DNA of 64,000 bases from Caldinitratiruptor microaerophilus (GTDB lineage: Bacteria > Bacillota > Sulfobacillia > Symbiobacteriales > ZC4RG38): NCBI RefSeq assembly GCF_025999835.1, contig NZ_AP025628.1:2914001-2978000 (forward strand), read 5' to 3'. Below the pieces are notes generated by a model. The model was not told the DNA's origin. It was given only the letters and a program-made list of their open reading frames with translations, and searched no databases. Below, in pieces: positions 41,642 to 43,505 of this stretch; positions within the stretch are counted from its first letter, which is position 1, and the number at the start of each line of letters is the position of its first letter. Made by a program: the position numbers and the translations under genes.

Positions 41642-41670
41642 TTGCACGGCGGGTCTGCGGATGGTAGAAT
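41642..41670 (+). promoter_or_regulatory. sigma-A-type promoter of the T-box/aspS transcript
   Basis: -35 TTGCAC (41642-41647), 17-nt spacer, -10 TAGAAT (41665-41670). Transcription would start near 41677, at the base of T-box stem I. Confidence 0.7.
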
Positions 41671-41676
41671 CGATGC

Positions 41677-41961
41677 CAACGCGAGGCGCAAAGTGATGAG
41701 CAGGAGGAGTACCCGGGCGCGGACCTGCCAGAGAGCCGGCGGTGGGTGCGAGCCGGTGGGAGGGCCCGGCGAAGAACACCTGCGAGCGCCGGCGTGAACG
41801 GTGCGGTCGGGATGCGTGCCGTCCCGCCGTCCCAGTAGCGCCGGACGGCCCCGGCCGTTATCCCGGGCGCTGTCGAGGGGCCGGCCCGCGACGGGCCGGC
41901 AAGAAGGGTGGCACCGCGAGCCGGCGGCTCGTCCCTTTGCGGGACGGGCCGCCTTCTTTGG
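41677..41961 (+). promoter_or_regulatory. T-box riboswitch with Asn (AAC) specifier
   Basis: Stem I carries the conserved AGTA (41708-41711) and a distal loop region GAGAGCCGGCGG...GGTGCGAGCC. The specifier bulge GAAG-AAC-A places AAC (Asn) at 41775-41777. The T-box proper AGGGTGGCACCGCG lies at 41905-41918, and an intrinsic terminator follows: 13-bp stem (41923-41935 with 41941-41953), loop TTTGC, then TTCTTTGG. Uncharged tRNA-Asn should bind and stabilise the antiterminator, turning on the downstream synthetase. The 14-nt T-box core is a near-perfect consensus match. Confidence 0.93.
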
Positions 41962-42194
41962 TTGCATGGCCGGCAAACGCGACGCAGGAAGTTTCGTGGC
42001 GTTGGAGCGGTCTCCCGGGGGTCGAGGGGCGGTTTCTGCACGCCACCCGGGGTGCAGGATCTGCACGGCGTCCCGCCCGGCGACGACTCGTGCCGCCACG
42101 TGAAACACCGGCCTGCGGCGCCGGGCGCCCCGGCCCGGCCTGGACCGGTCCGGCCGGCCCCGGCGCAACCGTTCCGGACGGGAGGTCCTCCGCG

Positions 42195-43505
42195 ATGTCG
42201 TCTTCGCTCACCACCACACGGGTTCTGGCAAGAGACCTCGCACGGCACACCGGGCAGACGGTCACGTTGAAGGGATGGGTGCAAAGCTGCCGCCACCTCG
42301 GCGGCCTAGCCTTCGTGATCCTGCGGGACCGGTCCGGCGTGGCCCAGGTCGTGCTCGAAGGGGAGCTGGCCGCACGGCCGCTTCCCGAGGAGGCGGTCGT
42401 CGCGGTGACCGGCGAGGTGGCGGCCGATCCCCGGGCGGTGGGCGGCGCCGAGGTGCGGGCCTCGGCCCTGGAGGTGCTGTCCGCCCCCACCCGGGTGCCG
42501 CCCTTCGAGATCAACAAGAAGACCCTCAAGGCGAGCCTGGAGACCATCCTCGAGCACCGCGCCTTCGCCCTGCGGCACCCCCGGATCGGCGCCGCGCTGC
42601 GGGTGCAGGCGGCCCTGATCGAGGGGTTCCGCAACTACCTGGCAGGGCAGGGGTTCCTGGAGGTGCGGACGCCGAAGATCGTCGCCACCGGCACGGAGGG
42701 CGGGGCGAACCTCTTCCCGGTCCAGTACTTCGAGCAGCGGGCCTTCCTGGCGCAGTCGCCGCAGCTGTACAAGCAGATGCTCGTCGGGGCCGGCTACGAG
42801 CGGGTGTTCGAGGTGGGACCCGCCTACCGGGCCGAGGATCACAACACCTCCCGCCACCTCTCCGAGTTCACGAGCCTCGACGTCGAAATGGGCTTCATCG
42901 ACTCCGAGGAGGACCTCATGGACCTGGAGACGGAGCTCCTCCGGTCGATGTTCGCCCACGTGGCGGAGCGGAGCGCCGCCGAACTGGACCTGCTCGGGGC
43001 CAGGGTGCCGGAGGTGCCCGGGCGCATCGAGCGCATCCCGGTCCACGAGGCGCACGAGATCCTGCGGCGTCGCTACCGCAAGGTCTCGCCGGAGGGGGAC
43101 CTCGACACCGAGGGGGAGCGCCTCATCTGCCAGTACGTCGCCGGGGAGGGGCGGCCGCCCCTGGTCTTCATCACCCGCTACCCGGCGTCCGTCCGTCCGT
43201 TCTACTCCTTCCCGGACCCCGACCGCCCCGGGCTCACCCGCACCTTCGACCTCCTCCTGGCCGGGCAGGAGATCACCTCGGGCGGCCAGCGGATCCACGA
43301 CCCGGAAGTGCTCCGGGAGAGCCTCCGCCGGCGGGGCCTCGACCCGGCGGGGTTCCAGCACTATCTCGAGATCTTCGAACTCGGGATGCCTCCCCACGGC
43401 GGGTTCGCCATCGGGGCGGAGCGGCTGACCGCCCTGGTCCTGGGGCTCGGGAACGCCCGCGAGGCCGCTGCCTTCCCGCGGGACCGCACGCGGCTCGTCC
43501 CGTAG
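42195..43505 (+). CDS. aspS: archaeal-type aspartyl-tRNA synthetase (AspS2-like, aspartate--tRNA(Asn) ligase candidate)
   Basis: 436-residue class IIb synthetase. N-terminal OB-fold anticodon domain (GWVQSCRHLGGLAFVILRDRSG), then motif 2 region FEVGPAYRAEDHNTSRHLSEFTSLDVEMGFID and motif 3 GMPPHGGFAIGAERLT. The short form without the bacterial GAD insertion and the wording of motif 2 match archaeal-type AspRS rather than AsnRS or bacterial AspRS. The upstream Asn T-box argues it serves Asn-tRNA formation by charging tRNA-Asn with Asp for GatCAB. ATG at 42195 has GGGAGGT 8 nt upstream. The two residues used to call discrimination look atypical (Gln in GWVQ, Val in RAVGG), so specificity stays open. 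Confidence 0.85.
   Translation: MSSSLTTTRVLARDLARHTGQTVTLKGWVQSCRHLGGLAFVILRDRSGVAQVVLEGELAARPLPEEAVVAVTGEVAADPRAVGGAEVRASALEVLSAPTRVPPFEINKKTLKASLETILEHRAFALRHPRIGAALRVQAALIEGFRNYLAGQGFLEVRTPKIVATGTEGGANLFPVQYFEQRAFLAQSPQLYKQMLVGAGYERVFEVGPAYRAEDHNTSRHLSEFTSLDVEMGFIDSEEDLMDLETELLRSMFAHVAERSAAELDLLGARVPEVPGRIERIPVHEAHEILRRRYRKVSPEGDLDTEGERLICQYVAGEGRPPLVFITRYPASVRPFYSFPDPDRPGLTRTFDLLLAGQEITSGGQRIHDPEVLRESLRRRGLDPAGFQHYLEIFELGMPPHGGFAIGAERLTALVLGLGNAREAAAFPRDRTRLVP

Follow-up and report, generated by a model that had tools for sequence, protein, structure and literature searches.

The aspS2 locus

The window we analysed is a stretch of 64,000 nucleotides from Caldinitratiruptor microaerophilus (class Sulfobacillia, order Symbiobacteriales, family ZC4RG38; NZ_AP025628.1 positions 2,914,001-2,978,000, assembly GCF_025999835.1), and all coordinates count from its first letter. 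It contains a T-box leader followed by aspS2, the gene for an archaeal-type aspartyl-tRNA synthetase, AspRS2 (Table 1). In a focused cmscan the leader matches RF00230 with 83.3 bits (E 1.8e-18), and all 219 model positions are aligned. The curated gathering cut-off of this model is 93, and a scan of the whole window at that cut-off returned no T-box match. We do not take the empty scan to mean that the leader is missing: unmistakable T-boxes elsewhere in the genome likewise score below 93. The high-GC genome of 3.6 Mb holds 15 T-box matches, just one of which reaches the cut-off. Since 14 of the 15 fall short, we attribute the low score of the aspS2 leader to GC-rich composition and not to a doubtful match.

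Table 1. Features of the aspS2 locus in the window
Feature	Position	Strand	Basis
Possible promoter, TTGCAC-17-TAGAAT	41642..41670	+	8 of 12 consensus bases, read from sequence; weak
T-box leader (RF00230), Stem I to antiterminator	41687..41939	+	cmscan, full-length match
Specifier AAC (Asn)	41775..41777	+	Model register, validated on the genome's further T-boxes
T-box core AGGGTGGCACCGCG	41905..41918	+	Model match, sequence reading
Intrinsic terminator, 13-pair stem then TTCTTTGG	41923..41961	+	Folding; excludes the antiterminator and vice versa
aspS2, archaeal-type aspartyl-tRNA synthetase, 436 aa	42195..43505	+	NF003483, TIGR00458; monocistronic by position

Both hairpins expected of a T-box can form. 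The antiterminator, with its 7-nt bulge, folds at -16.7 kcal/mol, a stability no greater than that of shuffled sequences. The rival terminator hairpin (41923-41953) reaches -30.1 kcal/mol (z -7.0) and is followed by TTCTTT. At this GC content, the fold of the complete leader carries no information (z -1.1); the terminator alone stands out. Within the core, the UGGC bulge (41909-41912) is complementary to the GCCA end of a tRNA with G73. An initial annotation of the locus, made from the letters alone, had already proposed the leader and the terminator, and had put the core where we find it. It had also proposed a promoter. The corresponding hexamers are indeed present, although they are weak and a consensus promoter scan did not report them.

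The terminator is separated from the start codon by about 230 GC-rich bases (41962-42194); in the sister species this distance is roughly 85 bases. Folding of the segment predicts a long hairpin, with a stability no greater than that of shuffles.

As the initial annotation had it, the enzyme is of the short archaeal type. It lacks the bacterial GAD insertion and passes the cut-offs of two models for aspartate--tRNA(Asn) ligase, NF003483 (557 bits) and TIGR00458 (435 bits). The nearest PDB sequence is that of Thermus thermophilus AspRS2 (1n9w). The reading frame is intact, and its end branch on the protein tree is short (0.13).

The specifier of the leader

Around the specifier, the register of the covariance model reads GAA-G-AAC-A-CC, which places AAC where the initial annotation had put it. 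The same register yields the expected amino acid in 13 other T-boxes of the genome, whose downstream genes we named by eye from their translations. Among these controls, leaders of amino acid biosynthesis genes carry UAC (tyrA), CCC (proC and proB), CUC (ilv-leu) and AUC (a cimA-like, citramalate-synthase-like gene). Those of synthetase genes and hisZ carry CAC (hisZ), CUC (leuS), AUC (ileS), UUC (pheS), AUG (metG) and GGC (glyQS), and those of operons UCC (serine operon) and UGG (trp genes). A further T-box with a Phe specifier (UUC) lies at genome position 3277745-3278016.

The variable base of the bulge provides an independent check on the Asn specifier. It is C in the aspS2 and trp leaders, T in most others and A in glyQS. 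The tRNA-Asn(GUU) of the genome has G73 as well as a U1-A72 pair, and the bulge C pairs with this G73, as the discriminator rule predicts. With AAC in a validated register and UGGC facing G73, we regard the Asn T-box as secure as a sequence feature. That aspS2 is regulated by uncharged tRNA-Asn, as the initial annotation suggested, is likewise well supported at the level of sequence: by the specifier, the register controls and the G73-compatible bulge, by AAC in both relatives of the same family and by the clostridial gatCAB operons described below.

Specifiers and gene order among relatives

Of the 154 genomes searched within the class, 45 have the AspRS2 gene. A Stem I covariance model located leaders before most of these genes, and many named homologues from clostridia, actinobacteria and Chloroflexi have one too. 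We read 71 aspS2 leaders, five of which have a spacer one base longer, so that their specifier was set by hand. The specifier is GAC or GAU (Asp) in 49, AAC (Asn) in 16 and GGC in six. Within the class GAC prevails, also among the next relatives in the order. AAC is found in all three members of the window family, in one other class member, in clostridia and in one member of the Chloroflexi. The leader of the window gene matches the T-box model better than the leaders of both sister species.

The six GGC leaders belong to a single family-level group of the class. Their UGGC bulge suits tRNAs with G73 and not tRNA-Gly; the glyQS leader of the window genome has UGGA. Possibly GGC stands for Asp here, with anticodon GUC pairing to it by way of a G-U pair in the middle. 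Three Nonomuraea leaders with GAC place an Asp T-box before an actinobacterial aspS2, outside the usual Firmicutes setting.

For the protein tree, which is unrooted, we left out columns 30 and 82. In it, the window family is a fully supported trio, placed inside a group whose specifiers are mostly Asp (support 94). On the best tree, the distribution of specifiers takes seven changes or more to explain. Tests on the tree reject one common clade of the Asn leaders (p 8e-5); they disfavour, without rejecting it, a joint origin of the window family and the main clostridial Asn group (p 0.07). The parsimonious reading of this unrooted tree is that the specifier changed from Asp to Asn in the window family.

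What lies downstream of aspS2 differs with the specifier. All 11 clostridial Asn loci have gatA, and usually gatB too, behind aspS2. Overall, gatA or gatB follows in 11 of 16 Asn loci and in 0 of 34 Asp loci for which 900 bases or more of downstream sequence were available (Fisher p 1e-7, kinship ignored). The Asn loci that lack an adjacent gatCAB are the window gene, its two same-family relatives and two others. Because clostridial Asn loci run into gatCAB and checkable Asp loci do not, we read the Asn specifier as the mark of a role in transamidation. This linkage is the best evidence for that reading, and it agrees with what is described for Clostridium acetobutylicum.

Residues that determine tRNA discrimination

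Non-discriminating enzymes typically carry His at about position 28-31 and Pro at about position 77-85. Our alignment gives Gln30 and Val82 in the window enzyme, in line with the Gln and Val named by the initial annotation; the counterparts are His and Pro in T. thermophilus AspRS2 and Trp and Lys in T. kodakarensis AspRS. The other enzymes under an Asn T-box have Pro82 without exception (15/15), and His or Tyr at position 30. Both same-family relatives, 73-74% identical to the window enzyme, keep the His/Pro pair. Elsewhere, a residue other than Pro at 82 is seen only with Asp leaders or where no leader was detected. The association of Pro82 with the specifier has a p of 0.014, with too few independent pairs on the tree to reach significance.

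The departure is confined to very few positions. Within residues 1-105, 21 anticodon-domain columns keep their residue in 80% or more of the enzymes under an Asn T-box, and the window enzyme departs from them at 30 and 82 only. Over the whole length, 76 columns are invariant in the other 15 enzymes, and it departs at two, 82 and 323. Position 82 is the equivalent of Pro77 in Deinococcus radiodurans AspRS2. Replacing this proline by several residues, including valine (P77V), reportedly left the charging of tRNA-Asp intact and abolished the use of tRNA-Asn in vivo. Judged by sequence, T-box and enzyme thus seem to disagree: the leader senses Asn, and both residues expected for the use of tRNA-Asn have changed.

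Routes to Asn-tRNA in the genome

The initial annotation implied tRNA-dependent asparagine synthesis. The genome encodes GatA and GatB, at a distance from aspS2, and its tRNA-Asn has the U1-A72 pair that bacterial GatCAB requires (PMC4206432). It also encodes an intact AsnRS (asnS), a bacterial-type AspRS behind a hisS-like gene and two asnB-like proteins above the TIGR01536 cut-off; targeted searches of the genome found neither asnA nor GlnRS. Because no GlnRS was found, GatCAB is expected anyway for the formation of Gln-tRNA. One AsnB is strong (342 bits), and the two sister species have the weaker type only, a contrast based on three genomes. The other routes to Asn-tRNA are present, and indirect formation is possible but not obligatory in this genome. 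Some clostridia with a second AspRS have a similar mixture of routes (PMC4206432). The initial annotation had held that its proposal would suffer from an intact asnS with an Asn T-box of its own, combined with strict tRNA-Asp specificity of AspRS2. An intact asnS is there, but it is without such a T-box: neither asnS nor the bacterial aspS lies near any of the 15 T-box matches of the genome.

Discussion

We propose that the leader acts by transcription attenuation, as a T-box sensor of uncharged tRNA-Asn. During a shortage of Asn-tRNA, tRNA-Asn would pair with the AAC specifier and, through its free GCCA end, with UGGC. The antiterminator would then form and aspS2 would be transcribed. For the AAC of the window family, the simplest origin would be a change from GAC. 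The AspRS2 of this family would be an inducible entry to indirect Asn-tRNA formation, in which Asp-tRNA-Asn is made and then converted by GatCAB, as a supplement to AsnRS and AsnB. Transamidation is likely to be the ancestral role in the window family. For the window gene itself, an Asn-sensing T-box over an AspRS2 that feeds indirect Asn-tRNA formation is our leading reading, and we lean towards it with modest confidence.

This reading draws on the register, the bulge C, the U1-A72 and G73 of tRNA-Asn, the AAC relatives with His/Pro, the gatCAB operons, the presence of GatA and GatB and the intact enzyme. Against it count Gln30 and Val82, asnS and the two asnB-like genes, the separation of aspS2 from gatCAB and the fact that Gln-tRNA formation already explains GatCAB. 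The weakest step is the aspartylation of tRNA-Asn, because His30 and Pro82 became Gln and Val. A contribution of AspRS2 to the formation of Asn-tRNA is plausible, although the determinants of the enzyme itself conflict with it.

Similar systems are known. In C. acetobutylicum (Saad et al. 2012, 2013, as cited in PMC4206432 and PMC4052509), an Asn-specific T-box likewise precedes the gene of an extra AspRS, and the genome encodes AsnRS and further AspRS enzymes besides. There, aspS2 and gatCAB form one operon; in the window aspS2 stands alone and gatCAB lies elsewhere. The window enzyme also lacks the His/Pro pair of the Asn-T-box clostridial enzymes we examined. T. thermophilus and D. radiodurans too have an archaeal-type second AspRS beside a bacterial-type AspRS and AsnRS. 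Their AspRS2 is non-discriminating, in bacteria without asparagine synthetases (PMC4206432), whereas the window genome has two asnB-like genes and an AspRS2 with different determinants. The Thermus-lineage loci that we searched showed no T-box. The Asp T-box aspS2 genes of the class relatives encode an orthologous enzyme behind a leader of the same architecture; they differ in the specifier, GAC or GAU, and have no gatCAB downstream where this could be checked.

One could also argue that the leader senses tRNA-Asn while the window enzyme has turned discriminating and charges tRNA-Asp only, regulator and enzyme having come apart since the split from the sister species. Both known specificity positions have changed, in this species alone among the Asn-T-box enzymes, and the effect attributed to P77V in D. 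radiodurans points the same way. With Asn-tRNA supplied by AsnRS and a canonical AsnB, such an uncoupling might be tolerated, and a relaxed need fits the strong AsnB that is missing from the two sister species. However, that comparison comprises three genomes, and the leader has stayed intact and even outscores those of the sisters. An Asn-controlled enzyme unable to relieve uncharged tRNA-Asn would be an open loop, and other residues may compensate for Gln30 and Val82. We consider this explanation a serious contender, though less likely than our leading reading.

It is improbable, in our view, that the leader answers to two tRNAs. GAAC at 41774-41777 contains GAA (Glu, 41774-41776) overlapping AAC, which could let both tRNA-Glu and tRNA-Asn act as in C. 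acetobutylicum; a review describes the T-box of Saad et al. 2013 in this way (PMC4052509). A G precedes the specifier in 14 of 16 Asn leaders and in 3 of 49 Asp leaders, which mostly have A there (kinship ignored), but G also precedes other specifiers of this genome (UUC, AUC). We give hardly any credit to a misassigned specifier and a leader that senses tRNA-Asp like most relatives: GAC does stand at the same place in most of the class, but the spacing is fixed, the register holds on the other leaders, two sister assemblies have AAC as well, and the first base of AAC would form an A-C mismatch with anticodon GUC.

The kind of system described here is already known from clostridia. What our study adds is the switching of the specifier across homologues and the mismatch in the window gene. 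The T-box specifier offers an independent readout of the tRNA that a second AspRS is meant to serve. In 65 leaders of homologous genes it points to either Asn or Asp, and an Asn readout is associated with gatCAB operons and with Pro at the determinant; in the aspS2 family the T-box appears to flip repeatedly between the two through one specifier base. The window gene is the sole exception to Pro among the Asn-T-box enzymes. If its enzyme charges tRNA-Asn, then proline would be dispensable for the recognition of this tRNA, contrary to what mutagenesis in D. radiodurans is said to have found. If it charges tRNA-Asp only, then riboswitch and enzyme can diverge in specificity, and a T-box still answering to tRNA-Asn over such an enzyme, which we put forward tentatively, would be a natural uncoupling of regulator and substrate specificity.
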